Shown in pieces: positions 41,716 through 63,010 of a DNA stretch of 64,000 nt. Each line of letters begins with the position of its first letter. The stretch's first letter is position 1. Both the position numbers and the translations under genes were made by a program. This DNA is from Cornus controversa (Eukaryota > Streptophyta > Magnoliopsida > Cornales > Cornaceae). The stretch covers positions 31,184,001 through 31,248,000 of the forward strand of contig CM048845.1 in the NCBI GenBank assembly GCA_026545225.1, in the 5' to 3' direction. Below the pieces are notes generated by a model. That model had not been told where the DNA came from and did no database searches. It saw only the letters and a list, made by a program, of their open reading frames with translations.

Positions 41716-41950
41716 CATTACAAGAAATTAAGGTTTTAGAGACAGTCTTTTAAGGACAGGCCAAAAACCGTCACTAAAAGTCCTATTTTTTAGGGACGGT
41801 AACCCTTTATCGTCACTATAGCACACCCTTTAAGGACGGTACAAAAAATCGTCACTAAAAGTCCTATTTTTTAGGAACGGTAACACTTCGCCGTCACTAT
41901 TCACACCCTTTAAGGACGGTACATTAAATACCGTCACTAAATGCTAAGAA
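41716..41950 (+). repeat. CACTA left terminus and subterminal repeats
   Basis: Starts CATTACAAGAAATTAAGG; the fourth base differs from canonical CACTA. Then come alternating TTTAAGGACGGTA and CGTCACTAAAAGTCC motifs, at least three pairs up to 41945. Such motifs are the usual binding sites of CACTA-encoded proteins. Confidence 0.75.
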
Positions 41951-41972
41951 GTTTTCGTCACCAAAATTTTCA

Positions 41973-42010
41973 GCGGGAAATATAGCGCCATAGCTTTCCT
42001 TATCGCGCCA
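41973..42010 (+). promoter_or_regulatory. GC-rich E2F-like motif cluster near the CACTA left end
   Basis: GCGGGAAA (41973-41980) matches the E2F consensus TTTCCCGC in reverse. TAGCGCCA (41983-41990) and TCGCGCCA (42003-42010) follow within 40 bp. They stand out in an AT-rich setting and lie where the transposase promoter is expected. Whether they bind E2F is inference. Confidence 0.4.
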
Positions 42011-42167
42011 TACTCTTACATTATTCTTAATATGTTCTTCAGTGACTATCGAGAGAACTAGTATCTTCAGAGAGCTTTAGTGATAGGGTTTTGTTTCATT
42101 CTTCAAAGATCTTGAGAGATCTTCAGAGAAAAGCGTAACCCCGTTCGATTTCATCTTTCAAGTCATT

Positions 42168-42205
<38 letters not shown>

Positions 42206-42882
42206 AAACCCTCTTCGTTCTTAGTCAGGTTTCACCTCTTCGATCTCTTCCATCTTCAAAGTTATTTAATTATTTTGATTTTTTTGGATCTTTCGCTGGT
42301 TTTTTTGATGTGATGATGCGAATACGTGTGTTTAGGGTTTGCAAATTGCAACTTAGAGAGAGACTCTGCTTGAAGCCCTGAAAGTTGTAAACGAAGATAG
42401 CCCTAACCCGCAAACCCCAATCTCTCTCTTACATCTACCGTGAAGCCCTAGATTTCTCTCTTTTGTATCCATCGGATCCCTTTCTATCTCTATCGAAGCC
42501 CCAATCTCTCACTCTCTGTGAAGTTACTTCCCTCTCTCGGTTCAATCTCTCACTCGCAATCCAGTTGCAGAGCTCTTCTGACAAGCAATGGAGCCCTAAT
42601 TGAACGAATTTACAAGGTATTAATTTCTTTCTCTCTATATCTCTCTTGCTATATATACATATTTGTTTGTATCTCTCTCTCACACACACACATAAACATA
42701 AACGCACACACAAGAACACAATCTCAAAGAGTGAGTTTGCTCAATGATTGTGACAAGTAGAGTATGCTGAGAGTGATTTTTGTCCTCAATTTATTGTTTT
42801 ATTTTATTATTATTTTTCTTTAAGTTTATGATTACAAAGAAACTGAGTGTTTTTTCTCACTCACTGGCTGTGTTTATCGAAG
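42011..42882 (+). other. Leader-like region of the CACTA
   Basis: Rich in CTTCA, CTCTCT and GATCT motifs, typical of plant 5' leaders. It has an (AT)n run (42170-42203) and a possible donor (ACAAG|GTATTA) near 42616. No coding frame that I recognise. Confidence 0.35.
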
Positions 42883-43013
42883 AAGCTAGGAACTGTCAGA
42901 GGTTATGCGACACAGAGTGGAAAGGGGGTGAATGCCCAAAGCCTCAAGATTGATGGGATTAAAGATATAATTGTTGTCTCTTATGATAAAGGTGGCGTGG
43001 ACAACTCCTCGTG
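42883..43013 (+). pseudogene. Exon fragment of INDH/NUBPL (mitochondrial Fe-S P-loop protein)
   Basis: Reads GTVRGYATQSGKGVNAQSLK then IDGIKDIIVVSYDKGGVDNS. INDH proteins have a mitochondrial presequence ending near RGYA, then GLK(I/L)xGVKDIIAVASGKGGVGKSST. The Walker A GKGGVGKS is degraded to DKGGVDNS, so ATP binding would be lost. A GT donor follows at 43014. The intact protein delivers Fe-S clusters to respiratory complex I. Only the start of the protein is present, on the same strand as TNPD. Captured-exon status is inferred from context. Confidence 0.7.
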
Positions 43014-44575
43014 GTAATGTTGCGCTATTCTTTTTATTATTATTTTTCTTTATCATGATTTGGATATTTGAAATGGGTTTTTTTCTGGATGATTAGTTAT
43101 GGCGCAATATAAAAATTTAGTGAGTCTTGATAATGCTAATAGGCTTTTTGGCTTATGGTTTAAGTAATTTTAAGGTATTTTGGTGTAATGCTTATCTTTT
43201 AGTGATGCAATGTCCTCATTTTGAGAAGTTATGAATTGGGTTTTTGGGAAAAGATGAAATTTTTATGTTCGTCAACCCCCTTTCTCTCACAAGACACACA
43301 CACACATATATAAATAGGACAAGCAAGTAAATGAAAGGAATAAAAAATTACAAAAGATCACCATTGGTTACTCCATTAATTCAAATGTAATATTTATTAA
43401 TATTGGATCAATAGTCTATCAGAAATCTCTTTTGTGATATGTTATATCTTTAAGCAATTTATTTCTTTCCTTCTCTTGTCAGTTTGAGGTGTTGATTCAA
43501 GTGTTTTTTTGGGAGAAACAGTTGGGAATCATATATTCTGATGTAGCTAAACATGCCACTGATTTAAGCAACTATCAGTTTCATTTTGGGCATAGATAAT
43601 AGTCAAAGAGCAAAAAAGCGAAAAAGATTTTGGAAGAAGAGGTAGGAAAGTAACAAATTAATAGTTGTGCTTATTGGTAATAGTATATGTATGTATCATG
43701 TTGGAAGCTGTAGAGTTAGCCTACTGGATGACCAAAATTTTTATGTGATGTTAATTACTAAGCTAAAGGTGACCGAGTTGGTAAAGAAAGAAGGGGTAGA
43801 AAGGGAGGAAGGTAGGTTCGACTGATGTGTGGGTGTTTGATGAGGTGGATCGGCTAGTTGGTGCTTGGTGTTTGATGAGTGATTGGCTTAGGGTTGATGT
43901 TGGGCAAGTGAGGTAGGTGAGAGGAGGTTGGTTTCGGCTGAGGTGTGGATGTGGGTTGTGGTGATGACTGGCCGTGAGTGAGGGAAGTGGCATAGTGTTG
44001 AGCCATGGTGAGGTAACTGGTTCGGCTTTGGTAGGTGATAGTTTGCTGCCGAAGTGGGTTTTGGTGGTTAAATAATTCATTTCCTTCCTATCTGCCCTTA
44101 CCAAACATATATTTGGAAGAAAAAAAAAATGACAACAAAAGATCATGTACAGTGAAGCAAATGTACAAAGACACTGTGTTTGAAGAATGCACTTGCACAA
44201 CAATTAACAAAGATTTAATTAATGCATTAAAGAACATGGGTGATGAGAATAAACTATCTGGTAGATGAAAATTAATGATTGTGAATATACTATTTTTTTA
44301 GCTTTTATGACTTTCAGTAGATCCTCAAATAGGCATCTCACTTCAAATACAGTGATTTGCAGTGCAGGTAAAACCAATGGGCTCTATGGTCAGTTTTTCA
44401 TTTTTAATTGTATGAAGTGATATTTTCTCTCGACTTTATATTATAATTTTAGGTCTGTCCTGTTCCTAATATTTTAGAGATTTTGTCGTATTATACAATT
44501 CCAAATAGCCCTTACCTTATGCAACTATTGTGAAAATTCTGAAAATTGAGATGATGAATTGGTAAAAAAAAAATA
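43014..44575. other. Unassigned interior of the CACTA
   Basis: Includes an exon-like stretch 43488-43650 bounded by AG and GT (reads FEVLIQVFFWEKQLGIIYSD, then stops) that I cannot identify. A GGT-rich segment lies at 43780-44060. No RNA gene seen. Confidence 0.3.
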
Positions 44576-44578
44576 TTA

Positions 44579-44669
44579 GCAAGTATGAAAATGCAGGTCC
44601 TAGTTTAGCAAACCAATTATTTAGCAAGTATGAAAATGCAGGTCCTAGTTTAGCAAACCAATTATTTAG
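44579..44669. repeat. Perfect 45-bp tandem duplication
   Basis: TAGCAAGTATGAAAATGCAG and the next 25 bases occur twice in a row without a difference I can see, implying a recent duplication. Confidence 0.9.
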
Positions 44670-44980
44670 CAAGTACTATAGCTACCTTATCAGCCCCCTA
44701 TTAGGGTAAGGTTTGAAGCATCCTCAAAATCCTATATGGCTGAAAAACGCACCATACATGCATACATGTCATAGTTTAAACTTCCAAAAAGATACAACTC
44801 AGCGGTGTCAGATTACCAGACATGCTTACCATTAAGTAACTAAATTACATACAGCAATTGGTTATTGACTTGGATAATCCTCCCGTGCTCCCTATCTGCA
44901 TAACCAACTCTGCACATCCCATGTCAATCTTCTACGGTGTCATGGAGTTTACTGTGGTGGTAGTTCGACATGTAATCATG

Positions 44981-45420
44981 TCACCACTTTGCCTGCGACT
45001 GCCTAGCCAATGGGTTCCCTCTTCTCTTGCGATTGTTCAATATAGGCAATGCATCATCTACCATTTCCTCTTTCTCCACATTCTCCACCTCCTCTGCCCT
45101 TGATGTCTGTCCCTTCATGCCCAGATGGTTTCCACCTCTGACATCCTCATGCTGCACTTTCTCAGTTTCTGAACAGCCCTGCTTTCTCTCCTGCCTGATT
45201 TTCTCATCCCCTGCTGCCAGTTCAATTCCCTCTTCCAACTCCTTCTCAATGATATCATCTTCATTCATCAGCTCCCTTTTCCAGAGGTCCCCACAAGACT
45301 TTTTCCTTTTCTCAAGTGCCGCCTTCACCTTGTCAATCATTTTAATAGCATCCTGGGGTGACTGGCCAAGTGGACCTTCCCAAAACTGCATATTCCAATT
45401 TTCTTCAATGGATTGCGTAG
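44981..45420 (-). pseudogene. Open minus-strand stretch, unidentified, acidic and lysine-rich
   Basis: An open frame on the minus strand runs from inside the LIFEGUARD exon to 44981. The part outside that exon reads QSIEENWNMQFWEGPLGQSP, then KMIDKVKAALEKRKKSC and ELEEGIELAAGDEKIRQERK. Composition is protein-like, but I recognise no domain. It could be a captured host exon or a gag-like/ORF1-like piece. The antisense frame is also open, so the evidence is weak. Confidence 0.3.
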
Positions 45421-45592
45421 GGAAGGTCATTTTGGAATCTGTGATCTTAACAACTGTGGTGGTTGTGAGTCTTACTGTGTACACATTTTGGGCTGCAAGA
45501 AGAGGCCATGATTTTAACTTGGGCCCTTCTTGTTTGGTGCTAATATGGTGCTTATGGTTTATGCCTTTATTCAAGTTTATGCCTTTATTCAG
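45421..45592 (+). pseudogene. Exon fragment of a LIFEGUARD (BI-1-like) gene
   Basis: After an AG acceptor (45419-45420) the frame reads KVILESVILTTVVVVSLTVY, TFWAARRGHDFN, then in a shifted frame FLFGANMVLMVYAFIQ. LIFEGUARD/TMBIM proteins have GKVILExVILTxVVVxSLTxY, TFWAA(R/K)RGHDFNFLGPFLFGA and VLMVFxxIQ, two transmembrane helices of the seven. A one-base loss near the LGP motif shifts the frame. A 20-bp segment (GTTTATGCCTTTATTCA) is duplicated at the exon's end before GT. The intact protein is an ER or tonoplast membrane regulator of cell death. Confidence 0.75.
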
Positions 45593-46170
45593 GTGGCCAG
45601 TTGCAATGGCTTTCATGACTTATTAATTCAGCATTATTTTGTTGCATGTTTGTTAAAATAGTTAGTAGTAATAGATCGAATAGTCAGATCAAATCCCACC
45701 TTCATCCAGATCCACCACAACCACAACCCTCCTATGCCTGGGGTTCCTTCTTATGGGTTGTGTTTTGTTGCTTTGCTTGGCTGTTTTAGGTTTGTGTGGC
45801 TTGCTGCTTCTATGCTTTGATGTCTTTGGCTTTAATTGTGAATGTTTTGGTGCCTGGCTGTGGCTGGTTTGCTGCTCTATGGTGATTGGTTTTTTTTAGC
45901 TGGTTCGGCTTGGTCTTCTTTCACTTTAATTTCTTGCATCTTTGGCCTCTATGTAAAGACTAAAGTGCATGATAAAATACAAATTATGTTTGCTGCTTCT
46001 TGTTGGTTCATAGCAATTGGAACCCCCAAAAAAGTAAGTGTTGCCAGTCCTGCATGCTAGAATTGTGTTATGATTCAATTTGATTTGAGTTCCTTCTTGG
46101 AATTTTCATGTGTTCTTCAGCTGATCGAATAGGCTATTCACATGTCTAATTGTCTTTTTCACAGAATCAT
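45593..46170. other. Unassigned interior, with one membrane-like open stretch
   Basis: A plus-strand frame near 45905-46045 reads LISCIFGLYVKTKVHDKIQI then MFAASCWFIAIGTP. It is hydrophobic and might be another membrane-protein exon, but I cannot identify it. Confidence 0.3.
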
Positions 46171-46341
46171 GGTAACTTGCTTTGCATTTCTTCCCCGGTC
46201 CTTGTCAACCAGCCGGAATGCAGCGTCTGGGCCATTGATTTCTAGTACAGAGTAGTTGGGGTTCTCCATGGCCACTACCACTGGAGTTCCCTTTCTAGTA
46301 TCCTTTGCCCACCACTTAAAAATATCTGTTCTTAGACCCAT
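46171..46341 (-). pseudogene. N-terminal fragment of a cellulose synthase-like C (CSLC) gene
   Basis: Starts at a true ATG (46341) and reads [43 protein letters not shown], then NAKQVT. CSLC proteins (xyloglucan backbone glucan synthases of the Golgi) begin with [29 protein letters not shown](D/N)GPDxAFRPVxKxRGKNAKQ(V/F)TWVLLLKAH. Similarity stops after QVT and is followed by an unrelated TGA-containing tail, so about 57 of some 690 residues are present. Upstream sequence (46342-46650) is leader-like. It is opposite in strand to TNPD. Confidence 0.85.
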
Positions 46342-47470
46342 ATTTGACACTCAACTGAACTCAATTCACTCACAAAGGCAACACAATAATAGCCAAATAT
46401 GCTAAACCCAATAAGCAAAAGCTAAGAACTTTAAACCTTAGAATTACCCAGATCTCAAAATGAAGAAAATCACAAACCCATTTGAGGTCTAACCATTTAA
46501 AACAGAACCAGCACTCAAAAACCTCAAATAAAGAAGAGAACTTCCAAATTCATTGTATAAAAATTGAATAACAAACTCACAAATTCAATTCATGTCTAAC
46601 TACAAAAGAACAGATCCACACAAATTCAAAAACCCCACTTCAATACTCTCTGCATTCTACATTGATCATTTTTTTTATGCAATTCAAAAGTCATTTTACT
46701 TGATTAAATAATGATAACAATCATTTGTATGCATTTTTTTTTTTAAGATTAAACAGCCATTGGCATTACTAAAACAATGTTCATTGATGGTTGTTTTAAT
46801 TTAGGTATTCAATTGAGTATTTGTTTTAATTTAGGAAAAAAGAAAGTGTTATGTCCATAGAGATTTTATTTTATTTTTGATCAGGTAAGTACTTAACCAA
46901 TGGAGAATTGGGTTTCTAAAAGTTGCTGTGTCCAAAACTGACTTGTATTAACCAAGGCAGTCTATTAGATTGGGTGGTAAATAGTGCAAAACTGACTTGT
47001 ATAACAGTCACTTGTTTATTTTTGGTTGTATACTATTTTACCTACCTATTTTATATGAAAATTATTTGGAAATATAACATGGACATGACAAGAAGTCCTG
47101 TCCATATTCTTATATGGACTCACATCCAGCAATTCTTCTTCTGATTGCTTTGTGTTTTTGTGCACATGTATATATATACGTGCTAATGTGTGTGTAGGAC
47201 TTCGACTGAGATTACTCTTTAAGGGCCATCACAATCACATGGTGGTCCTTTGTAAACCTTTCATAAAACGAATTGTATTGATAGGAAGAAAATGAGTTCT
47301 AATGTGAAAATCCCATGGGTTGTATAAACACATTTAGCTGAATCCATTAAAATAAATTGTATTCTATCGTGATTATGATAAGTGACAATGCACTGAATTT
47401 TGGTCTTCTAGACCGTTAAAGAAAAGTTTTATTTCGGAAGGATTTTTACTGTGATAGCTATGTATTGCAG
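46342..47470. other. Unassigned interior between the CSLC and UXS pieces
   Basis: The first 300 bp may be the CSLC 5' leader/promoter, captured with the coding start. The rest is AT-rich with no frame I recognise; AAACTGACTTGTAT occurs twice (46935 and 46988). Confidence 0.35.
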
Positions 47471-47545
47471 GCCATTTGCAAACAACCATTGACTGTATAT
47501 GGTGATGGAAAACAAACATGAAGCTTCCAATATGTCTCTGACTCG
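47471..47545 (+). pseudogene. Exon fragment of UDP-xylose synthase (UXS)
   Basis: Between an AG acceptor (ATTGCAG) and a GT donor (GTATGT) the 75-bp exon reads AICKQPLTVYGDGKQT, TGA, SFQYVSDS. UXS (UDP-glucuronate decarboxylase) proteins have AI(R)KQP(M/L)TVYGDGKQTRSFQYVSDLVDGL in the C-terminal half. The Arg codon after KQT has become TGA. The intact enzyme makes UDP-xylose for xylan and xyloglucan. Exon boundaries are exactly preserved, implying a genomic-DNA origin. Confidence 0.85.
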
Positions 47546-47763
47546 GTATGTCATATTAATTTATGTTATTTTTCCTTACCTGCTAATGTTTTAACCAGGG
47601 ACCATTTCAAATGCCTGTTGGTTATGCATTAATTTGATGTCTACTTCCTTTTCCTTTGGGTTTTTTTTAGTGTAATATAATGTTCGCATGGTACACTCAA
47701 CAACTCTACTAACCTAGCAAAATTGTAAACAAAGGATTAAAACCTTTGAATAAATTGAGAAAC

Positions 47764-47778
47764 ACACACACACACACA

Positions 47779-47825
<47 letters not shown>
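47764..47825. repeat. (AC)n followed by (AT)n microsatellite
   Basis: ACACAC run to 47779, then about 45 bases of AT dinucleotides. Confidence 0.9.
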
Positions 47826-47828
<3 letters not shown>

Positions 47829-48140
47829 ATGGAGTATTATAACGTGGATTGAAAATGTGTGCGCATGTGCATGAGCTTAAAAATGCTCATCCTAACTATT
47901 TCCCATATGTAAAAGTACTGATTAACAAATGACTTTTGAAAGTTATAATTTTATATATTTGAACGACATTTAAATATTTAAAGTTACATCTTCTCCAATC
48001 CTTTAAGCTTTTAGATTTGTTAACATTTTGCAATTATTATTTTTAGGTAAGAATAAACATGTAAGGAATAATTAGGCAAGTATAACACAGGTTGAAAGCA
48101 ATTATTGTTGTGTGTATGTAAAAAATATAGATAGACTTAC

Positions 48141-48307
48141 CAACACAGAGCTTTGTCAATAATAACGGGGTCTAGAATGCAACCCTGTCCACTTCTTATG
48201 CCGTCCCCTTTTGTACCACTTTGGGCAAGAACATTCATAACTGCCCTCTTTGTTATGACAAGTATTTGTGCAGTCATTGAGGTCTGAATTCTGACATTCA
48301 TCAATAT
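48141..48307 (-). pseudogene. EGF-calcium exon of a wall-associated kinase (WAK) gene
   Basis: On the minus strand, after an AG acceptor (TTTTCAG), the exon reads DIDECQNSDLNDCTNTCHNK, EGSYECSCPKWYK, then in a shifted frame KGDGIRSGQGC, and ends at a GTAAGT donor (48140-48135). This is the calcium-binding EGF pattern DIDEC...C...C.N..GSY.C.CP.GY.GDG...G.GC of WAK ectodomains. A one-base shift after WYK breaks it. No transmembrane or kinase exon is nearby. Confidence 0.7.
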
Positions 48308-48365
48308 CTGAAAACGATCAAACTGATGATAATTAAGCATATATGGCCATAACAAAAGAACTTTA

Positions 48366-48572
48366 TTCATCCTTCAATATTCCAGAAGCATCAACATATT
48401 TCCTTCCATCGGTCTTGAGCTCAAAGTCCTTGCTTAGATAAAGAGTCCAATTTCCATATCTCACTGATTTTGGCATCGGCCATATGTTAAGGCGCTTAGT
48501 ATCAACAACAGATACTGAAAGGACTTGAAGGAATAGTCCAAGAAGAAATCTTTGGATCACTATCTTCCCCAT
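48366..48572 (-). pseudogene. N-terminal fragment of beta-hexosaminidase (GH20)
   Basis: A true ATG at 48572 opens MGKIVIQRFLLGLFLQVLSV, a signal-peptide-like start, followed by NIWPMPKSVRYGN, LYLSKDFELKTDGRKY and VDASGILKDE. Plant HEXO proteins have (V)NIWPMPKSVxxGxxxLxLSxDFxLxTxGSxYxDASGILKD(A/G)FxR. Similarity ends at GILKD and a stop follows two codons later. About 67 of some 540 residues are present. Upstream sequence up to 48690 looks like a leader with a possible TATA (TTTATATGC) near 48660. The WAK EGF exon lies only 58 bp downstream on the same strand. Confidence 0.85.
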
Positions 48573-48692
48573 TTCAAAATTCTAGCAAGCAAAATCAGAG
48601 AAGACTGAGAAATCAAACTCTATAATATTAAACGGAAAGATTTTGCAAGAGCTGTGAGCATATAAATCAAAGCAGGTGCAGAGGGAGAGGGA

Positions 48693-48842
48693 GGGGGGGG
48701 GGGGGTTTCAAAACTCTATTAATAGTACTTATTTATGTATGGTTATTAATGGTGATTTTATATAGAAAAATTAAGGCTGACCCCCCCAAATTTTTTAAAA
48801 AATCCTATTTATGGTTACCTATTTAAAGGTACTCTATTCTAA

Positions 48843-48882
<40 letters not shown>

Positions 48883-49106
48883 TGTTATGAATTAAAGAGA
48901 GAAGAAAAAACATGCTCCATATTTGACAATCTCATTTATGGATTGTCAACTTTTCTTCTCTCCATTTTTTCTTCTCATATAATTTATAGACATGCTCCTA
49001 AAAATACACATTAAAAATGAATTGAAAGAAAAATTGTTATAATTATTTTATCTTATTTTTAAAATTTTATTTTATATTACTAGTTTTGCCCCCCCCCCCC
49101 CCCCCC
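48693..49106. repeat. Segment bounded by oligo-G and oligo-C tracts
   Basis: G13 at 48693-48705 is followed by TTTCAAAACT; C18 at 49089-49106 is preceded by AGTTTTG. The two sides are therefore weakly inverted (G-run, CAAAACT). The inside is AT-rich with an (AT)n run and has no gene. It may be a small inverted-repeat element or chance homopolymers. Confidence 0.35.
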
Positions 49107-49493
49107 AAAATAATAATAATAATACCTGAATCAAAGGTCCATAAACTTGAAAGAAAGTCCTTAAAAATTACACCACCATAGAGAAGAAGGCGGGAGATAA
49201 ATGATAAAATTTCCTTTTCTACTATTTACCTCTTGCATTTTAGTGACTAAATTCTAATGGGATGGAAATTCATATAGACTGATTCGTCAGTAATATATTT
49301 GGCTTGCATATACAATTGTAAAAGTATCAAAAATAAAGAAGAAAAGATACATTGAATATGCAAATATGCTGCTAGAAGAATTTAGGGGTTGCCAGTCGGT
49401 CATGCTGATCAGTAACTAAGTTTCAAGAACAAAAATAACTTGCAGCATTCGATACAGAGTAAGCCCATTCAGGGGAAAGTAAAAAGTGAGTGG

Positions 49494-52400
49494 TTTTTTT
49501 TTTTTGAAAGTTAAGCTGGTCAAGTTTATTAACCAAAAACGGCAAAGCCATACATCCTACGAGGGGCATACCCTCAAGAAATATCACAAATTTAAATGAA
49601 ACCCCCACACCCACCATAGGAAAGAAAACCACATCAGGAACCATCCTATGTCAATAAGACTAACCCCGGCCCCTACACACAACAGAAACCCACTCCTTTG
49701 CTAGACATATGGAAAACAGCCCAGATTCAAAGGAATCTTCACAACTAGACAGCTTTGCGATCACATAAAACCATAACAAACGTTGGGCTACACCCACATC
49801 TTTAGCCCTTACAAACAACATGTGCAATCATAAGAACCCAGCCACAATCCAATCCACCCCATAAACCATCCATTCTTTGCTAAAACTTGGAAATCTCGCC
49901 TGGGAATTATAATAAAAGTAGATCAAACTATATGAAATCTGATTCCCATTATCATAATCTGTATTAATAATGCACTTCCTCAAACCTGACTGCCATAAGC
50001 CCATACCATCATCAATCATTGTTTGTGTGATTACCCTAGCATCAATTCTGCCATATAGAGTTTGGAAGATTCCACTCCTCTTGGATCCATAAATGCATTC
50101 AATTTTTATCAAAATTAGAAAGGGAGAAAAGCCGAAATCTTACATTCTGGATAATATCATTGATGATGGTTGCCTCAGTCCTATACTCCTCTGCATAATT
50201 CCTCTTGTTTCTTTCTCTCCAAACCTCATACACCGTAGCAGCAAAGGCTAATCTGTTAATATCAGCAACCAGAGACCTTCCTTTCAGTACCATTGCAGCC
50301 CACTGTACCATAGCAGTCCACCCCTCTGGCCATTGCATCCAGCATTTGCTTCTTATTGCATTCCATATCCTGCGAGTAAATCCACATTCAAAGAATAAGT
50401 GCTCTCTATCTTCTATAATATGATTGCAAAAAACACAGCAGGTGTCTGAACAAATCCCAATTTCATCATCCTACTCTTAGTCCACAATCGATCCTGAACC
50501 ACCAGCCAAAGTAAGAGGGCATGCTTTGGAATAGCATGCTTGAACCATACTATGTCCCTCCTTTGAAACTTTGCTCTGTTTGTGTCTGAGAAACTCCCAG
50601 GTTGATTTAATTGTAAAGATAACCTTACCAGGCACCCACTGAATCTTATCCTCCTGAGAGGAGTTAGGCTTAAACTCAATAGGAATACTATTTCTCAAGT
50701 TCATCCATTCCATTGTGTTTGTAACAAGCCAGTGCCATTCACTTCCTCTAATAACATCAGCTACTGCAGCATCTGTGCCCAGCCCTGAGTCTCTAATAAT
50801 TCTGTTATGATACTTCAATTCTATAGGCCCATCTGGAAGCCAGTTATCATACCAAAGAGAGGTTAACAGCCCATTTCCAACCTTATGATAAACAAGTCTC
50901 AAAGTGCCCCTCATTTTCAGAATTTTCCTCCAAGTCCATGAGCATTCTGTTGGAATCTTGAGAGTCGAGAAATTTCTGTTTGTTATCAAATGAGTTTGGA
51001 CCCAGGCCACCCATAGAGAATCTGAGTTAGGTTGAATGACTTTCCACATATGCTTAGCCATAGCTGCTGCATTCCACACCTCAATATCTTTAATTCCCAG
51101 ACCCCCTTCTAATTTGGGCAGACAAATATCCTTCCAAGCCACTTTATTACCCCCTTCACTCAAACTTTGACCTTTAAACAAGAATCTTCTCATGATGGCA
51201 GAGATTTCTTTCATAATAGATTTTGGCAACACAAAGGTAGAGGCCCAATAGACTTGAACAGAAAACAAAACAGAGCTTATTAGTTGCATCCTTCCAGCAT
51301 AAGATAGATACCTACTAGTCCATGATCTAACTCTAGCAGTAATTCTGTCAACTAGGGAACCACAATGCTCCTTCTTTAGCTTAGATGAAAGTAGAGGGAC
51401 TCCCAAGTATTTAACTGGACGGCAACCAGCAGAAAAATTCAGTTTAGATATGATTTGAGCATAATAGTCTTGATCTAATCCTGAATGAAACATCACACTC
51501 TTCGAAAAAATCGGCATTAATCCAGACATAGCTCCAAAAGAATGGAGAGCACCCTTTAGAACCCTTATAGAGCTCACAATTCCAGCTGAGAAAAGCATCA
51601 GGTCATCCGCAAAAATCAAGCTAGAGATTTTCTGATTAGAGCACTTCCAATGATAGTCAAATTCTCCCTGTTCAATCTGCTGCTTTAATATACCTGTCAA
51701 CACCTCCATCCCCATAACAAATAAATAGGGGGACATAGGATCACCTTGTCTTAACCCTCTCCCATTCTCAAAATATCCTTCCAAGCTGCCATTCAAGTTG
51801 ATGGAAAACTTAGCAGTTGTCATACAGGTCATAATCCACTTTCTAACCTGCTCTGGAACTTTGAAGGCTTTTAGTGTAGCTTCCATGAATCTCCATGACA
51901 CAGTATCATAGGCTTTTTTAAGGACCACCTTCATTGCAATCCTTGCTGGCTTATTATTTCTGTGATAATTCCTTAGCAATTCCTGAGCAAGCAGTATGTT
52001 GTCTGTGATACTTCTACCAGGAACAAAAGCCCCTTGATTACTGCTTATAGATGAATCCAGAACAGGTTTTATCCTATTAGCTATGATCTTAGCAATACAC
52101 TTATATAACACATTGCACACTGATATAGGTCTGAAATCACCAACAAAAGTGGGATTTTGAACCTTAGGAACTAAAGTGATAATAGTAGAATTCACCTCCT
52201 TCAAAAGCTTCCCTGTTGAAAAGAAGTTTAGAATAGCTTTAGTAACATCAGCCCCTATAATATGCCAGGTTCTCTTGAAAACCCAGAGCTTTATCATCCT
52301 TCAAAGAGAGGAAAGTGTCTTGAACCTCCTCTTTAGTAACTTGCCTTTGCATTCGTAGAGCTTGTTCATCTGTTATAGGCTTTGAAATGTACTGTTGCAA

Positions 52401-52662
52401 ATCAAACATTCCTTCATCTTCACTTTGCCTGCTCAGGAGTTTCTTATAAAAATTTATAATTTCAGTAGCTATATCACTTTTCTGATCAATCCTATGCCCA
52501 TCATCTGCAGTGATTGACAAAATAGCATTGTATTTTCTTCTTTGGGTTGCTTGTTTATGAAAGAAAGGAGTATTCTTATCCCCCAAGTGAAGCCATTGAA
52601 TTCTGGATTGTTGTCTAAAAAAAGTTTCTTCAGCTTTCACCATTACCTGATAGTTAAAAAAA
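49494..52662 (-). mobile_element. L1-type LINE, 5' truncated and inactive
   Basis: Read on the minus strand the element starts inside ORF2 and ends with GCTTAACTTTC followed by an A-run (T-run on plus, 49494-49505). Imperfect flanking repeats (AAAAAGTGAGTG at 49481-49492 and AAAAAGTTGAGTG at 52663-52675) look like a target duplication. ORF1 and the endonuclease are missing. It is inserted between the hexosaminidase fragment and the TNPD gene. The frame changes visible in ORF2 indicate an old copy. Confidence 0.85.
50099..52643 (-). pseudogene. LINE ORF2 remnant: reverse transcriptase, zinc-binding region and RNase H-like tail
   Basis: The first frame (52643-52248) has QSRIQWLHLGDKNTPFFHKQ, the linker before the polymerase. 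A frame change near 52290 leads to a 606-codon frame with LVPKVQNP, DFRPISVCNVLYKCIAKIIA, NQGAFVPGRSITDN, KVVLKKAYDTVSW, GLRQGDPMSPYLF, FADDLML and KYLGVPL, the ordered RT motifs. In motif A the usual KVDLKKAYD has valine in place of the catalytic aspartate, while FADD is intact. Further frame changes near 50600 and 50400 separate the zf-RVT part (WFKHAIPKHALLLWLVVQDR) from the terminal part (VYEVWRERNKRNYAEEYRTE). The protein cannot function. Confidence 0.9.
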
Positions 52663-52898
52663 AAAAAGTTGAGTGTTTTTAACCTTTTTTTTTTTTTTTG
52701 GTTGATTTGATGAGAGAATGTCCACTATTTTGGGTGCAAAGAAACAAATATAAACATCAATGCTACTCAGTCTTGTTCATGTGTCTGGCTAAGATAAGGT
52801 GAGTTTCTATCGTTAAATATAAAATGAAGACATCAACAACAAAACACTCATCAAATTTAATTTTCTTTCCTTCTCCTTAGCTTATAATTAAGAAGAAA

Positions 52899-52929
<31 letters not shown>

Positions 52930-53200
52930 ACCAGAATATTTAAACGATGGAAGCATATATTATGCATATTTGCCTTGCAAAATTTGATTTAAAATGCTTC
53001 CTATTTTTGTTTTTAATCTTTAGTCAAATTATACTTTGTGACATGTTAGGGCTTGCTAGAGAATTAATTAGCAATTGCACAGAAATCTGCACATCTGAAG
53101 TTCAATTTTTTGTGTGCTTGATTCTATTAAGGGCTTTAATTACTGAACCTTTTTCTATGAAGGTCTGAAACAACATTTCATGTTTTGTACAGCTAGTTAC
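52663..53200. other. Intergenic segment before TNPD
   Basis: A-run, T-run and an (AT)n run (52902-52929). It probably contains the TNPD leader or an upstream intron; an AG precedes the ATG closely (CAGCTAG near 53194). Confidence 0.4.
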
Positions 53201-56200
53201 ATGGATAAGTCTTGGATTCATCATCACACTAGGGGTAGTCAAGAGTATTTTAATGGCATACAACAGTTCATTGAGGTGGCTAGTCGTGATACAGACTCGG
53301 CCGGTAGGTGTCGATGTCCATGTTGTCGTTGCAAAAACAAATCCTATCTTCTAATTAAAGATGTTGAGAAGCATCTTGATAAGGTTGGGATTGACAAAGA
53401 TTATACCAATTGGATATATCATGGGGAGGTTTGTTATAACAACAATAATGTTAATGTCAATGCTAATGTTAGTGTGGAAAATGTCCATGATGAAGACAGA
53501 ATTGTTGATAATGTATTTGAGTTATTGGATAATGTACAGATGGGAAACTTTAATAATGATGAACAACAAGAAAATTCACCTGAAGTTGATGCGGGAGGGG
53601 GAAGTTTTGATAGATTGCTAAATGATGCACAATGTGAATTGTGGGCAGCTTGTAAAAAATACTCTAAGTTATCAGCGATATTGAAGTTGTTTCATGTGAA
53701 GGTTATAAATCAAATGACGAACAAAGCTTTTGACATGATGCTTGAGGCATTTAAGGATATGCTTCCTGACACCAATGTGTTACCAAAGTCTCATTACGAG
53801 ACTAAAAGCTTGTTGCGTGAGTTGGGTCTCGGATATGAGTGTATCCATGCATGTAAAAATGATTGTGCTCTATTCTGGAAGGAGAATGAAGATAAAGAAA
53901 ATTGTCCACAGTGTGGTGAGTCAAGGTATAAACCTCACGAAGGAAAGGGTAAGAAGATCCCTCAAAAGGTTCTTCGACATTTTCCTTTAAAACCAAGGCT
54001 TCAACGATTGTTTATGTCAAAGGATACAGCCTTAGACATGCGGTGGCATAAGGAGAAACGTGTGAAGGAGACAAATGAGTTAAGACATCCAGCTGATTCA
54101 CAAGTTTGGGAAGATTTTGACAATAAGTATAATTGGTTTGCAGCAGATTCCTGTAATGTTCGTCTTGGATTAGCAACTGATGGATTTAATCCTTTTGGTG
54201 ACATGAGTAATGCCTATAGTATGTGGCCTGTGATGATTGTGCCCTATAATTTACCACCTTGGATATGCATGAAGGAAGCATATATGTTTATGTCGCTACT
54301 TATTCCTGGTCCAAGATCGTCTGGTAATGACATTGATGTGTATCTGCGACCGTTGGTTGATGAGTTGAAAGAATTATGGACAGATGGTGTGATGACTTAT
54401 GATGCTTATAGTAAATGCAACTTTAAAATGCATGCGACATTGATTTGGATCATAACCGACTTTCCCACCTATGCAATGGCTTTCGGATGGATGACAAAGG
54501 GTTATCTAGCATGTCCAAATTGTAACAAAGAAACATGTTCTTGTTATTTGAGTCACGGACGGAAGATGTGTTATTTGGGAAGTCGTATATTTTTGCCATT
54601 TGATCATGCTTTTAGGAAGCGTTATAAACAATTTAATGGTAAGAGGGAAGACAGAGTGCCATCGAAGCAGTTGACAGGTGATGAAATTCTAGAACAACTT
54701 AACCTCATACCTGAGGTTATTTTTGGAAAGGGACCAAATAATAAGAAACGAACTCGTGAGGATTTTGAACTTAATTGGACAAAAAAGAGCATTTTCTTTG
54801 AACTCCCTTATTGGAAAATGCTTTTGCTACGACACAACTTGGACGTAATGCATATAGAGAAAAATATATGTGATAATGTGTTGGGGACATTATTGGGCAT
54901 CGATGGAAAAACAAAGGACACATTCAAAAGTCGGTTGGATTTAGCAGCAATGGGGATTAGAAAAGAACTCCACCTTATGCGAAAAGGTGAAAAATTTGAG
55001 ATGCCACAAGCACGTTACACATTGTTAAAGAATGATAAAAGACAACTTTGTGAATGGCTAAAATTAGTTAAGTTCCCAGATGGTTATGCATCGAACATAA
55101 GTCGATGCGTGAATGTTCAGACTTGTAAGATATCTGGATTGAAAATTCATGATTCACACATTCTCTTACAGCGTCTCCTTCCTATAGGGATACGAGGGTT
55201 TTTAGATTCGGATATTTGTAACGTAATAGCAGAGCTTGGTTTATTTTTCAAGGAGTTGTGTTGTCGAACCGTTAAAGTTGATGTCTTAGAGGCAATGGAA
55301 AGAGACATCGTCGTTATACTATGCAAGTTGGAGATGATATTTCCTCCATCGTTTTTTGACATAATAGTGCACTTGGCTCTGCATTTGCCTCGTGAAGCCA
55401 TCATCGCAGGGCCCTCACAATATCAGTGGATGTACCCCATTGAAATGTGTTGAATATTTTTAGTACACCAAAAATTTACATTCTTTAATGACAGTTTTTA
55501 TTTTTGACTTGCATTGAATTATTTTTTATTATTTTAATTTGTCTAGATTTTTGCACACACTCAAACGGTACGTGCGTAACAAAGCACGTCCTGAAGGATC
55601 CATTGCTGAAGCATACGTGGACAATGAGTGCCTCACATTTTGTTCAAAGTTTCTTCGAGGGATTGAGACACGATTCAATCGAGAAGAGAGAAATAGTGAG
55701 GGAGACTGTAACAATGGTTGGTCCACTTTTTCAGATCTAAAGCAAGTGGTTCGACCTCTAGGGGCACAAAGTATGGAGATATTGAATCGTGCAGACATGG
55801 GCATGGCTTGATCGTATGTGTTAAGGAATTGTGAAGAAGTCATGGAATGGGAAGAGTAAGTAACTTATTGTATATCAGATCTTATCAGTTTTTTTGAATA
55901 TATTGTCAATTTCTAAATACATGTATACAATTGTATTTTAACACACTGTAATTATTTAGTAAACACAAGGCAGCACTGACGATAAATAACCCACGCAATG
56001 TTCCTTTAAGACATGCAAAAGAATTCCCGAGATGGTTCGAAACACAAGTAAGTCCATCATGTATATATTTGACATACTTAAATCAAATTATTTTATTTAA
56101 TTTAAATGATGTGCCATTATGTATTTAGATAACACATTAAATTTTTTTTAATAGATAAAGGAAATGCGTCATCGTGATAAGGCAACAACTTGTGATGATC

Positions 56201-56918
56201 TGTATTCATTAGCCTGTGGACCTGATACTCGAGTAAATCGATATTCTGCATGTATTGTAAATGGAATTAGGTTTCATACTAAGGAAAGGGAGCGACATCG
56301 ACGGACACAAAATAGTGGTGTGCTAGTGAAAGGAGAAACCCAAGATTACTATGGTGTCCTGACAGATATCATCGAGTTGCAATATCCTTTGGGGAGACAA
56401 GTTTTTCTTTTCAAATGTGATTGGTTTGACGTTCGAACTGGCATACATAGAGATGCTTATTTCACGAGTGTAAATGTAGCCAGTAGAGCATACAAAGATG
56501 AACCGTTTGTACTAGCAAATCAAGCAAAACAATGTTTCTATGTCAAAAATAATAAATTACAAGGGACATGGGAGGTAGTTCAAGATATAACAAACAGAAA
56601 CTCGTTTGATGTACCTGAAGTAGAGGATGAAGCCAGAGTAGATGATGAAATGGGGGCATTGCAGCATATCAAGAGAATGAACCAAGCATCATGGATATTG
56701 TTGTTGAGGCAGATTTGGATATGGATCCACTCCCTTTAAATAGGGACTACTTGGAGGGTGAAACTTTTGATGCTGAAGTGATTGAGAAAAGTAGTGGTGA
56801 AGCACCAACTAATGATGAATTTTGGCTTGTCGAGGATGAGGGAAATGACATTCAAAACAGTTCAAATGAGGAACCAGATTTACTGTCTGAAGATGACATT
56901 GATTTGGATGACACCTGA
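53201..56918 (+). pseudogene. CACTA transposase TNPD, four exons, nearly intact
   Basis: The start is ATG 53201 (MDKSW), the usual TNPD start. Exon 1 (53201-55446) has the Transpos_assoc zinc motif (CRCPCCRCKNK, residues about 40-55), the Transposase_21 core with LGLATDGFNPFG, MYVMWPVM-like NAYSMWPVMIVPYNLPPW and NLDVMHIEKNICDNVLGTLL, and a DUF4218 region ending WMYPIE. Intron 1 is GT 55447 to AG 55546; exon 2 (55547-55855) begins FLHTLKRYVRNKARPEGSIA. Exon 3 (55960-56047) reads HKAALTINNPRNVPLRHAKE. Exon 4 (from 56155) carries DUF4216 (YYGVLTDIIELQYPLGRQV, FKCDWFDV) and an acidic tail. Defects seen are an in-frame TGA at 55809 in exon 2 and a frame change near 56650-56690. TNPD binds the element's ends and catalyses excision in the nucleus. 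Confidence 0.9.
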
Positions 56919-57230
56919 AGCTTGTATTGTTGAATTTGTATTTTATTTTTTGGTTTTGTGATAGATACATTTATGTGATCTATTTAGTTCTATTACTTCG
57001 TTTTATCTAATGATATGGATTCTGTTTTCCTTTTCTTGTAAGACAACATTGTCTTGACATGGTTTATAGCATTATGACGTGCTATATGAATATCGTGCTT
57101 GATTTTCCACTGGTAGGATTATAAACAACACTATATTGAAGTTTTGGATTGTTTGTCAGTCATTTTTTGCTTATGAAAAATAGAAAAGAAGTTTTGAATT
57201 GTCTTCTTTCTGAATTAAAATTGATTGCAG
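56919..57230. other. 3' region of TNPD
   Basis: T-rich sequence following the TNPD stop; no gene. It ends at the TTGCAG acceptor of the next exon fragment. Confidence 0.4.
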
Positions 57231-57390
57231 GATACTGCAACTTTAGGTGTTGGCATTGTAAGATACCGTGGTTACATTGCCACTGTGAAAGTAGAGGGGA
57301 GAGTGAATAAAGAAGTGAGTTCTCCACTAGAAAGCCTTGATCTTTTTTATCAGCCTGAAGGTGGTGCCAATGCCCTGAACATTAACAGGT
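57231..57390 (+). pseudogene. Exon fragment of a clustered-mitochondria (CLU/FRIENDLY) gene
   Basis: Bounded by TTGCAG and by AACAG|GTTTTT, the exon reads [40 protein letters not shown] and [12 protein letters not shown]. The GVGIVR.CGYxAxVKVEG and [13 protein letters not shown] patterns are characteristic of plant CLU/FMT proteins, which control mitochondrial distribution in the cytosol. The frame is open throughout, but only this exon is present out of a protein of about 1400 residues. It lies 312 bp after the TNPD stop, in the same orientation. Confidence 0.75.
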
Positions 57391-59152
57391 TTTTACTGAC
57401 TGCTATATCATGTTAAAAGAGTACTATGTATATGGACATATAACACTTGCATGTTTATGTAGTTTTTCATGAAGCTGGATATTATGATTTTATTAGTTGT
57501 GAACTTGTAGATATACTACTCATGTTGAAGAATTATAATTATATATCATGTAGAGTTTTGAATGTCAGTCAATCGATTGAAGCTTGGGACACTTACAGTA
57601 TGATAGTACTAGTTCAGGGATGAGACTTCCAAGTTAGAAACATTTACCTTTTGCTTCATTTTTATACGTGTTTTGGAACTTTATTTTTTCTTTTTCATAA
57701 TTTGATAATTTAAACACCTCCTAGAGGAAGAGTACTTGTCAGCTAAAACTTTTTCAAAGTGGAAGAGTACTAGAAGTATTGAATTGATTTATTTCATATG
57801 CTGGTTGTAATGAGGATCTTGGTTCCCAAAACCTATACATGCCTGGTAAGATTAGTTTTATTTGTTCTAGGGTTTTTGCATTCTGGATTTTAGGCCAGTT
57901 TCCACCAGATTAGAGGTTATATTCAGGGATCTATCACCTATATATTCAAGGCTTCTTGAAAATGGTTGCACGAGTCTACTCCCATTCATGAACTTGCATC
58001 ATTCTCTATGATGAATGGTAATCTTCTCTCAGTTGTACATCCCAAGATTTGGAAGTCTAGGAAGGAATGTCATGCAACGTTAGTGAGGGCTATCCCGTGA
58101 ATGAAAAGGTTTCTCAGCATTATGTATGCTGCAAGCAACCAAGCAGCTTCAGGTGAGAGCTTCCTTCGGATAATAAATCTAACTAACTGACAGAGGCCAA
58201 TATTCAAGTTCATTGAGATTCAAATTTCCAATCCCATAAAGGCGATACCCATCCGCCTGGATGGGTATGGTGGTAGGCATAACCTTTGTGTCTGCACAAT
58301 CCAAATGTATTTTGGATAGCCAAGGGTAAAGCACAAGGGAGTACAAACTGAATGGGTTCCCTGTAGGTTTCAACCACTCTCTACTACCTTGTTCAACCCT
58401 AATCCAAATCTCTCCAAATTAGGGCAGTTTGCAGGATGAGCTACTACTACTGCTAGTGGAGTCAAAAGCTCGCCAATTTAAAGGGTATTTTGCAAAGAAT
58501 TCTATTAAACTATGATCTTTTTGTAGATAACTCTTTTGTAATTTCTCCTCTCTTTTATTTTATTTTATTTTTTATTTCTAATTCATCCATTTTTACTTCC
58601 ATTTTCTGTGTGGTTCTGCTACTCTTCAAGTTATTCTCCAATTTGCTTGCAATTTTTTACTACCATATTAGTGATGAAAAGGATCAAGATTAACTAAAAT
58701 GTCTCACTTGTGATATGATGTGTACTAAAATTTTGTTTCAATTAGGATTTTATACTTTTTATTACAATTACTATGATTATGTGTGTCTGTGTCTACAGAG
58801 AAAGAGAGAGTTCTGATTTTGACAGAGAGGAAGCTAATCTTTCGAATTAATCAGCTAGGATAATGGGTCAGTGGTAGTCCAGGTAATATCTTCTTTCTTC
58901 TTTTCTCACTTTTTATCACCCTATCATGTTATTCTATGTATTAGGTTCAATTTCTGTTGAAATGAAACAAATGCATAGACTTGAAATGGCAATGCTTCTT
59001 TGGTGGTGTGTTTGCATTTAGAGAAGCATCAGGGTTGAAGGTTCTAAATGGCTCATTCATGGTCTCTCTCTTCGGATAGATAATATATATATTGCAAAGG
59101 ACACTAGTGTTAGTTATACATATAAAGAAAGGATATTCAATCTGCTCTGAAT
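57391..59152. other. Unassigned DNA
   Basis: Mostly non-coding. A minus-strand open stretch at 58179-58373 reads LSKIHLDCADTKVMPTTIPI and onward; it might be another exon fragment, but I cannot name it. Confidence 0.3.
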
Positions 59153-59197
59153 GAATTTATTACATATAGGCCTCAGCAACCTTTTGTGCTTGAGTCT
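59153..59197 (+). repeat. 45-bp direct repeat, copy 1
   Basis: GAATTTATTACATATAGGCC and the following 25 bases recur without a visible difference at 60958-61002, 1.8 kb away in the same orientation. Confidence 0.9.
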
Positions 59198-60957
59198 AAC
59201 CTTTTCTAGTTTCATTTTTTCTTTTTCTTTTTTGTGTGGGCTAGCTACTATGGCTTCTACTTATCAAACCTTATTTTGGTTTGTAATATTTTTATTCCTC
59301 AAAACTGAGTAGATAAAGCCAAAAAAAAAAAAGTAAATCTAGCTAGCTAGTTGGTCGCATATCTCATCATGATCATGCATGTTCACACATTTTTTTTCTT
59401 CCGATAAGGACATCTTCACAGAGAATTGTTGACTGATGATACATATATAAAAGTCATGGAAGACATATTATAGTTTCGGCTATGAACTAGATTTGAAGTT
59501 AAATTATATATCTTCATTCTCTTGAGTTTAAAATTATACAATTTGGTAATTAAGTACTTCAGAAGATTAATTTCATAGGAAACTGTATATGGTTGAAATG
59601 GTAGAATAAGATCAAGATATATACGATTCATGATTCACATAGTTTTGACAACTCGCTTGTATTGAAATATATCAGAAAGGAAATGAAGTAGTTTAATCTA
59701 AAGCAGGGAATTTCTGCAAGCAGCCATTTATGACCTTTTTTTTTTCTTCTTTCAATAAGGCTGTCATTTGTCTACTTTGATTCAACTATATATATCAATT
59801 TATGTAGATTTCTCATTAATTGCAATTTTCACAAGTATGTAATAAAGAGAAGGATATGTAGATATGAATCTTATCAGCATATTTCACTTTGTAATTCTAC
59901 ACACTGAAGAAAATATAAAGAGATGATAATGGAATCAATAGAGGGTAACATACCTTAATACTATGCCAATCCTTTGCCATACCATAGTTGCTAGCACAAA
60001 AATGAAATGTCCCTAAACTGGTTTAAAGTCAATCTCATTGGATCCACAAGTAATTGGAATTACAGATGAAAGACTGTTTTATACATATTACTGTTCTTGA
60101 GAAACTGCTTTTGGAGTAAGAACATGTCCTAGAAAATTCAAGAATTAAGAAGGAAATTATTTTAAGAAGGGCATTGTGTCCTAAAAATGACTGATTAGTC
60201 TTGGTTTGACCTCAACTTTTTATCAACAGAGAGCTTGATTATCCAGTAAATAATAATAATAATAAATTATTAAATATTCAGAAATAATTTATTTCCTGAA
60301 GCTGTTAGATTATACCTCCTATGTGTTATTGCTTCAATCGACTTTGATTTGATTGTAGGGTTTGTGATTTAAGGCTATCATCAAGAGCAGTAGAAGAGCT
60401 AATATGGAAAAAGTTAATGCACTTCTTGTGCTGTGTGAGTTAAATTTATTTGGAGGCCATCTGTTTGAAAAACTGAATTCGGTCTCTTTTTAACGTATTC
60501 AATCCGATAGCTATGTGTTTGTTTAAATTCCTAGGCGGCTGACAAGCTTTACCGGAAAACATGAGCAAAATGAGTGAGGATGTGGTACTTGAGAAAAATT
60601 GATGCTTAAGATCGAGTCTGATGGAACACAAGGATTGCAGGGTGTGGACAGTGGATGCATGGACTTGGCGAGAATGCATTCTCTAGAAATTTTGATGATA
60701 TGGTTAAAACTGGATGGATATTTATGTGTTTTAGGGTCGTTGGCTTTTTGATTGGATAATAAGAGAGTTTAGTTGTCGATCTTTTTGACCGTTCTGGGCA
60801 GAAATACTTGCAAATGGGGGAATGGAGGATTCTGCAGAATCTCACAATAAGTTTTTGAGAAGGAAATATGAATGTGTACTATTAATTTATAATGTATGTG
60901 CATATGTTGCAGTATGTATTTATGTGTTCGCCGGTGAATATCCTTTCTTTATTGCTG
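59198..60957. other. Unassigned DNA between two 45-bp direct repeats
   Basis: No gene recognised. A poly-T/A-rich composition prevails; open minus-strand frames near 60446-60845 look like chance. Confidence 0.35.
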
Positions 60958-61002
60958 GAATTTATTACATATAGGCCTCAGCAACCTTTTGTGCTTGAGT
61001 CT
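60958..61002 (+). repeat. 45-bp direct repeat, copy 2
   Basis: Match to 59153-59197. Both copies end CTTGAGTCT, after which the sequences differ. Confidence 0.9.
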
Positions 61003-61301
61003 ATGATGGAATTCAAGATAATATCTAATGAATGAATGGACCATTTCTGGAAATTTAACAGCTAGCTCATTATGGCATTTTCGTTTGCTTAAGCATGTGT
61101 TATGGATTAAAATTGCATAAGTTTGCATCTTCTCAATTTTGTTTTGGGTTTATCTTGACCCTCTTTAGCTCCTATTAATAATAGCTTGATAATCTGTTTT
61201 TCATTTTGGTAACAGTGAGTTGGCACTTTGCAACTTTTATTTTCATGTTTTATTTCTTCATGTGATTTACTATATATTTACTCTGATTGGATGCGTTGTA
61301 G

Positions 61302-61419
61302 AGTAGAAGCCAGAAATGGTGAACTTACCAACTTTGAAGTGCTTCAATTTCTTCAATGTAAAGGAGCTAGAAAGGATCACACACGGGTTGTTGCTACATT
61401 GACACCATCCGAGCTCAAG
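61302..61419 (+). pseudogene. Exon fragment of RNA polymerase III subunit RPC9
   Basis: After a TTGTAG acceptor the frame reads VEARNGELTNFEVLQFLQCK then GARKDHTRVVATLTPSELK and stops at a GT. Plant RPC9 (CRCP homologue, Rpb4 fold) starts MKI(I/V)KANAGALTNFEVLDFLRSRGAxKDxTRVxAxVAPSE(F/Y)KVYDYL. The exon is open but alone; neither the ATG exon nor the next exon was found. The intact subunit pairs with RPC8 in the Pol III stalk in the nucleus. Confidence 0.7.
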
Positions 61420-62149
61420 GTTGGATATTTTTATCTTTTCAGATTTGTCTAGTTTTGCTTCTTTGAAAAGTAATTGACACCTGTATGTATGAATTTGTAT
61501 ATGTCTCTACCGGTAATAACTCCATAATCATTGTTTCTAAGACACAATTCAACCTTGTTAATTGAAAAGAAGAATCTTTACAGAAGTACCTTGATTTAGA
61601 AATCCAACTCCTATCCAAATTCGTCTCCTTCAACTGTTACCTAGAGATGGTGCAATTGATGGCACTATAGAGACAGGGCCATAGAGATGAGAATCTACAA
61701 AGTATACGCAAGTAGGCTTTCTAATAGGGCCAAAACAAAAGCTTAAAAATATAAGGTGTAAACATTATGAAATGTTCAAATTTATTTACAAGAACAGATT
61801 TTGAATCATATATCTATTTTACAAAAATAAGCTAAACATATTTAAAAAGAAAAAGAAAAAATGCATAACAATAATTTAGAAATGTAATCCTTTTATCTTG
61901 ACTCATGGTGGTTGTATTTGTTTTGCACTAAAAAGTGACTCGTATGAGATCTTGTATATGTTGAAGATGAGAGCCTTTTCAATTAGTACAAAACAAGTAG
62001 CTTACTTTAAAAATAATATGAACTTCTGGCACTTGTCCATTGCAGTTAACAAAATGGATTCCCAATGGATCAACCTTTCAGTAATCTATTTCCACATTCC
62101 ATTATAGTTAACAAGTTACAATTCATAGTCCAATAAATATGGAAGCATC
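61420..62149. other. Unassigned AT-rich DNA before the gypsy LTR
   Basis: No exon recognised; no CACTA right terminus seen. Confidence 0.4.
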
Positions 62150-62924
62150 TGTAGATACATAAATTTTGTGATAGTCTTATCACCGTCTGATGGATCAACA
62201 AGTCAAATACTCCTGGTCAATTAAATTCCATGATTGCGGGTCCCATCGACGAACAAGTGTCAAAATCTTGAAGGTGCAGGCCTTCAAACAAATGTGTGAC
62301 AATTCAAATTTAAATTTGAATTTATTTCCATATAAAAAAAGATAAAATCTCTTTATTAATGAAGGTTGCCACAATTAATGGGGAGTTACCAAATTAAACT
62401 CTCACCATTTGGCCTATAAATACAAGGTCACCCTACACATTCAAGACAGAGACACAAAGAGTTCAAGAGAACACAAAAGCTCTGCCGAAGCTCTGCCTCA
62501 ACCAACACTCGAAGTTTTGAAGACGAAGAACATCAAGCACGTCACACAAGTGCTGTTCTACTTCAAAGACCTTCAACCTTCGAAGTTCTGAAGACGAAGA
62601 ACATCAAGCACGCCACACAAGTGCCGTTCTTCTCCGAAGACCTTCAATCCACCGTTCGAGATCAAGCTCTATCAGCCCTCGATCGAAAATCCAGTCAAGC
62701 CTTCCTCAATCCTGAAGTTTTGAAGAAAGCTCGTCACTACCGGTTCAAGAACAAGCTTTCGAAGCCCTTGTACCAAACATCAAGGAGATTGAATTAGAGG
62801 AAGATTCTTTATTGTAAAAGAATCGACCACAGAGAATTGTACCCATTTTTCTCAAATTAATAAAATCGATTGTTTGTTACTCAATTTCGTTCCTAGATTT
62901 TCGGACACGAAATTTGTGTGTACA
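62150..62924 (+). repeat. 5' LTR of the gypsy element
   Basis: Starts TGTAGATACATAAATTTTGT and ends GTGTGTACA (TGTA...TACA ends). It contains a TATA box (TATAAATA, 62415-62422), a polyadenylation-type AATAAA (62859-62864) and a diverged tandem duplication of about 75-80 bp (62505-62650) with GAAGACGAAGAACATCAAGC in both copies. Confidence 0.85.
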
Positions 62925-63010
62925 AATTTCTGGCACGCCCGGTGGGACCTCTCTGCCTCTCATCTCTATCTCCTTAATCAATTTGTCAACGATTTTCCTC
63001 GCTTGCATCG

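Follow-up and report, generated by a model that had tools for sequence, protein, structure and literature searches.

A 35.4-kb CACTA element of Cornus controversa with a transposase gene amid pieces of nine named host genes

The 64,000-nucleotide stretch of Cornus controversa DNA analysed here (the window; contig C1, positions 31184001-31248000) contains, beside the transposase gene TNPD of a CACTA (En/Spm) transposon, short pieces of several unrelated host genes, which raises the question of whether all of these belong to one mobile element and from where, and by what route, they came. A sequence-only reading of the window had described eight such pieces on both sides of TNPD and tentatively assigned them to a single element followed up to 61419. 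Searching across the 771.7-Mb genome assembly, we find that positions 41716-77162 (window numbering, continued past its end) are a single 35,447-bp CACTA (En/Spm) insertion, as had been proposed, and that the named gene pieces in it are nine: INDH, cyclin T1, LIFEGUARD, CSLC, UXS, WAK, HEXO3, REC1/CLU and RPC9. Very probably, this is one element in which TNPD and what is probably a second gene, each carrying an in-frame stop, are accompanied by a mosaic of host DNA; feature coordinates are collected in Table 1.

Terminal inverted repeats starting with CACTA, subterminal repeats and a TNPD with the tnp2 domain are all present, in keeping with the CACTA (En/Spm) group. The left end, CATTACAAGAAATTAAGG, departs from CACTACAAGAAAT at one base in 13, and GGACGGT/CGTCACTA-type repeats come next; in L023, an independent copy, the terminus is CACTACAAGAAATTAAGG. 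CACTA-end sites with up to two mismatches number nine in the window against 3.7 expected, but the subterminal motif of the left end is unique there (0 expected). The search for the right end covered 60 kb from coordinate 62001, of which 58 kb lies past the window, and found the 13-base CACTA end once without mismatch, a perfect terminus closing at 77162; the remaining matches in that stretch carry two mismatches. Both ends share the same subterminal repeats (41749-41941 and 76622-77142), the earlier limit of 61419 was therefore too short, and no right terminus is present near 57 kb. A query made of the joined flanks gave 21 matches, nine of them relatives of the flanking repeat that read through the join; each of the seven that were fetched is uninterrupted and lacks the 35.4 kb. 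Since the flanks are contiguous in these relatives and the termini match, 41716-77162 is a single insertion. Host DNA on either side of the two termini is arranged as inverted arms (75% over 283 columns), and the element sits in an older MITE-like (miniature inverted-repeat transposable element) repeat.

TNPD, earlier called near-intact, does retain four Pfam domains (Transposase_21 at E 6.7e-96) but carries an in-frame stop in its second exon and is therefore probably not functional. Near the right end a second CACTA gene is probable, a putative TNPA-like gene that matched no Pfam family, and from its sequence this copy is probably unable to mobilise itself.

All eight pieces of the sequence-only reading can be read in place, with support from search tools that varies by piece. 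Cornus florida proteins are the best matches for INDH, HEXO3 and REC1. The INDH piece matches C. florida INDH at 62% over 88% of its length (E 3.4e-4; one match among three candidates), and tblastn of 42889-43011 gives E 9e-10, the best of 20 shuffles reaching 0.29. The HEXO piece matches beta-hexosaminidase 3 at 82% over residues 1-68 (E 6e-29; best of 20 shuffles 0.002), and the CLU piece matches REDUCED CHLOROPLAST COVERAGE 1 (REC1) at 83% (E 5e-20; best of 20 shuffles 0.057). Pfam scans covered three frames of 42700-43100, all six of 41717-50200 and the three plus frames of 52700-62300; above cut-off they gave only EGF_CA (E 3e-7, in the WAK piece) and the TNPD domains, most single exons being too short for profile matching. 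Below cut-off, the LIFEGUARD exon matches Bax1-I (E 0.0034), and the last exon of cyclin T1 (44981-45396, minus strand), which had been overlooked and is named by reading, matches CycT2-like_C (E 9e-4). In PDB searches with two of the six frames of the left part, the minus strand matched EGF proteins and the plus strand gave no useful result. The RPC9 piece is named by reading alone, Pfam and PDB searches with it giving no match.

The donor loci supply much of what the single exons lack, since further exons or domains of the gene stand at the donors of CSLC, LIFEGUARD, WAK, UXS and HEXO3. The LIFEGUARD parent at C6:63.54 Mb is multi-exonic and matches Bax1-I at E 1.5e-26; the WAK parent has GUB_WAK_bind and EGF_CA; the UXS parent has an Epimerase match and a preceding exon, the latter found via motifs; and the exons of the CSLC parent match glycosyltransferase-2 weakly, just under cut-off, the name CSLC coming from reading. 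C6:44.62 Mb, tried as a further CACTA copy, was rejected as such: it is the parental HEXO3 locus (C6:44.62-44.64 Mb) with the whole gene, whose exons span residues 1 to 529 in order. Altogether, 6,784 bp of the element trace to 12 donor loci on eight contigs (C1, C3, C4, C5, C6, C8, C9 and C10), at 88-99% identity, and nine of these loci nearly tile 44064-49497; five have no recognised gene under the match, and the HEXO3 donor reaches 98% over 48365-48640 (276 bases). Those parents that were located are either on other chromosomes or on C1 at a distance of 13-66 Mb, and the captured pieces stand in both orientations, with the same blocks found at independent loci. Intron and upstream DNA is kept (intron flanks in UXS, REC1 and RPC9), which indicates copying at the DNA level and not via mRNA.

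That the arrangement recurs elsewhere, as the sequence-only reading had suggested checking, is borne out. The 24-base terminus pattern, allowing one mismatch, has 78 genome matches (35 forward, 43 reverse; none with the reversed control), and searches with stretches of the element scored 40 of 430 candidates in one case and 40 of 604 in the other. At C6:22.77-22.81 Mb we observe 47116-49495 (UXS, WAK, HEXO3), the start of TNPD, and 55451-58476, 58475-59125 and 61158-61477 (end of TNPD, REC1, RPC9), with a different flank at the right end. C10:14.217-14.226 Mb holds 46672-49497 with a gap (UXS, WAK, HEXO3), TNPD and 55419-57994 (REC1). Three relatives have both ends and perfect 3-bp target site duplications (C2:68.71, AAA; C8:25.78, ATA; C7:11.04, TGT) bounding matches to the right-hand blocks: all enclose matches to 60850-61164 and 61158-61477 (RPC9) and have a match that starts at 56950, spans the REC1 exon and reaches 58476 in C2 and about 57510 in C7 and C8. 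The INDH stretch 42700-43113 occurs at at least seven further loci at 95-96%, six with a family terminus within 10 kb. Five loci share the 670 bp of 61480-62149 at 99%, and four of them have an end reading CACTACAAGAAAATTG no more than 4 kb away. Both this stretch and 73420-73906, past the window, are shared at 96-99% with loci near CACTACAAGAAAATTG ends. Full-length matches at C1:30.74 and 30.90 Mb, two near-identical copies, were rejected as separate insertions and are duplicates, both flanks being shared with this copy.

How the pieces entered is best approached through their joins. At 46172-46174 both donors are in hand and share three bases, GTA; at 47375-47380 the donors overlap by six bases, imperfectly; and at 48365-48367 they share three. 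The join at 61164, between a donor and a family copy and not between two donors, was not counted. These overlaps fit repair of the excision gap with template switching and, being so few, are suggestive only. In the likeliest route, to which we would give an even chance, excision would leave a break in the element's locus, repair of the break would copy an ectopic template and so add host pieces, and during repair the template could switch at a few matching bases. The unequal divergence of the donors (88-99%) may suggest that the pieces were added one after another, an order read from donor divergence, which also depends on selection at the donors. In a broader reading, which we advance tentatively and think somewhat less probable than its opposite, a transposase-bearing CACTA lineage would act as a cumulative collector, with excision-repair cycles splicing host segments beside its own genes and leaving a donor-resolved, possibly time-ordered record (88% to 99%), including a 5.4-kb stretch almost wholly tiled by nine unlinked donors. 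A review, in the part available, describes aberrant excision of neighbouring elements as one acquisition route of Pack-CACTAs and allows that an alternative, undiscovered route may exist (PMC13317346). Aberrant excision could also act here, since at three loci (L072-L074; C10:33.90, C1:35.70 and C10:9.39 Mb) a 4.3-kb family copy adjoins a partial TNPD gene from a related element. The partial gene lies in a 1.7-2.05-kb flank common to the three, over 99% identical, the far flanks being different; perhaps a composite element is mobilised here through its outer end.

Several observations weigh against this account of one element with captured host DNA. The target site duplication of this copy is not adjacent: AAT stands on the left and, on the right, TAATTT and then AAT. 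The matching right end foreseen past 64 kb was found at 77162, and the second AAT lies six bases beyond it. Relative to the empty sites, the flanks have nine extra bases, the second AAT and the TAATTT beside the right end, and AAT is read at that place in three of the seven empty sites; an AAT duplication with six extra bases at the right end is probable. Among six terminus pairs read for the duplication, four match, the fourth being C10:33.90 (TTT), and two, C1:35.70 and C10:9.39, do not; C10:33.90 has its common flank with precisely these two. The C6:22.77-22.81 copy is taken as one element with about 23 kb within it unread. At loci without a recognised gene the direction of donation is inferred, and the parents of INDH and REC1 were not located. 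Finally, six other loci (L020, L021, L022, L024, L025 and L026) hold the block 45400-47465, from LIFEGUARD to the UXS intron; their flanks agree with one another and are unlike those of this element, so that some of the cargo may have come together in a different repeat.

We regard it as unlikely, on balance, that the fragments are the cargo of other nested mobile elements (a Helitron, a Pack-MULE or another CACTA) and were not captured in this lineage. The dispersed repeat at six loci, four of which agree at about 98.5% over 5 kb, contains pieces of LIFEGUARD, CSLC and the UXS intron as well as, by reading, S-locus-kinase-like pieces; it speaks for such nesting, as do the loci near CACTACAAGAAAATTG ends that share 61480-62149 and the existence of the composite 4.3-kb copies beside a partial TNPD. 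Against this, donor pieces directly abut one another, the C10 and C6 relatives retain the order UXS-WAK-HEXO3-TNPD, and at one locus (L030) UXS is joined straight to a CACTA right terminus. For a Helitron, the general Pfam scans (41717-50200 in six frames, 52700-62300 in plus frames; ends not scanned) gave no Rep, and a DnaB match at E 0.23 was below threshold. An assembly artefact or random segmental patchwork is highly improbable: the region is indeed duplicated in the assembly, the C1:30.74 and 30.90 Mb copies agreeing at 99.4% over 9.8 kb with flanks common on both sides, but the blocks and their joins recur independently on C2, C6, C7, C8 and C10. That the pieces are decayed local host genes hit by a CACTA insertion, for which we found no supporting point, is rejected with near certainty by the dispersion of the twelve donors and by the absence of the whole 35.4 kb from all seven empty sites.

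A CACTA with captured genes is a known kind; what this case adds is its richness, a transposase gene in the host element and a map of the donors. The likeness to Tgm-Express1 and Tpn1 elements drawn in the sequence-only reading holds, and the case is, as suspected there, unusually rich. The papers compared here were available in part. Between its CACTA ends Tgm-Express1 of soybean likewise has fragments, both exonic and intronic, from several unrelated host genes, but in 5.7 kb with five gene fragments as against 35.4 kb and nine named genes beside TNPD (PMC1947982). In the Tpn1 family of Ipomoea nil, with captured host sequence, 3-bp target site duplications and a longest member of 40.6 kb, capture is described in non-autonomous members, whereas here fragments flank TNPD on both sides (PMC5105172). 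Cactavine of grapevine (PMC2528002) and CACTAs of Chenopodium (PMC8978399) do carry host gene pieces in transposase-bearing elements, but these are a PPR piece or ULP domain in the former and Neprosin or AP2 pieces in the latter; the Chenopodium paper points to Rubin and Levy for the capture mechanism. Pack-CACTAs of Arabidopsis, rice and maize combine DNA of several loci in one element, the number rising with length, and are defined by the lack of a transposase match (PMC8903248); this element has host gene DNA between CACTA ends but also TNPD. Maize Pack-CACTAs with several loci are reported there, with no maximum stated in the part available. Within the open-licence literature, as far as available, no CACTA is described with as many sources.

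How terminal-inverted-repeat transposons gain pieces of unlinked genes is an open question, and with donors, joins and sister copies in one assembly, join homology, capture order and spread after capture become directly readable. The cargo is most likely without protein function; it may give rise to transcripts or small RNAs, and gene annotation near such elements likely lists false genes.

Table 1 Features of the CACTA insertion and its nested elements, in window coordinates
Feature	Position	Strand	Donor, identity or other evidence
Left CACTA terminus and subterminal repeats	41716..41941	+	
INDH exon fragment	42889..43011	+	no parent located
Captured segment	44064..44538		C8:43253141, 94.1%; no gene identified
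Cyclin T1 last exon and 3' part	44621..45396	-	C5:66665864, 93.2%
LIFEGUARD (Bax1-I) exon	45403..45582	+	C6:63543969, 94.0%
Captured segment	45621..46174		C3:69303494, 95.9%; S-locus-type receptor kinase frame about 1 kb off
CSLC 5' region and first codons	46172..46661	-	C1:97097983, 98.8%
Captured segment	46948..47380		C9:51436440, 93.3%; adjoins LRR frame
UXS exon and both intron flanks	47375..47948	+	C4:68490185, 90.8%
WAK EGF exon	48089..48367	-	C10:34.47, within WAK cluster C10:34.45-34.48 Mb, 87.9%
HEXO3 first exon and upstream region	48365..49497	-	C6:44.62 Mb, 91.5%; resumes at 52663-52935 past the LINE
Nested LINE (long interspersed nuclear element)	49498..52662	-	RVT_1, zf-RVT; within captured HEXO3 upstream DNA
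HEXO3 upstream remainder	52663..52935	-	94.4%
TNPD transposase gene	53147..56918	+	Pfam Transpos_assoc, Transposase_21, DUF4218, DUF4216
REC1/CLU exon	57231..57398	+	no parent located
Captured segment	57806..58454		C3:75826146, 87.9%; adjoins protein kinase gene
Captured segment	60187..60833		C1:91483027, 93.6%; no gene identified
RPC9 exon (61302-61419) and flanks	61160..61492	+	C1:18396468, 94.6%
Nested Ty3-like retrotransposon	62296..64000 in window, on to at least 70354	+	gag; broken frames
Probable second CACTA gene, TNPA-like	~74400-76440, outside window		by reading; frames 74.6-76.2 kb; in-frame stop
Right CACTA terminus	77139..77162, outside window (C1:31261139-31261162)	-	exact 13-base CACTA end

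Two retroelements are nested in the insertion. The DNA is continuous across the insertion point of the LINE at three loci (L019, L028 and L029), L028 being the HEXO3 donor, and no second long terminal repeat (LTR) of the Ty3-like element was found in 60-80 kb. Elsewhere in the window, a second CACTA occupies 350-25506, with ends related over about 250 bp (75%) and a matching target site duplication, ATA; ATA likewise follows an internal end at 6701, as though the inner end and the outer end could each be used. Within this second CACTA, 13538-16771 and 20971-24125 repeat each other directly over about 3 kb (94-96%) and probably represent LTRs belonging to one large retrotransposon; further on, 28752-30107 and 32024-33480 form a long inverted pair, 88% over 1.27 kb with a weaker extension.

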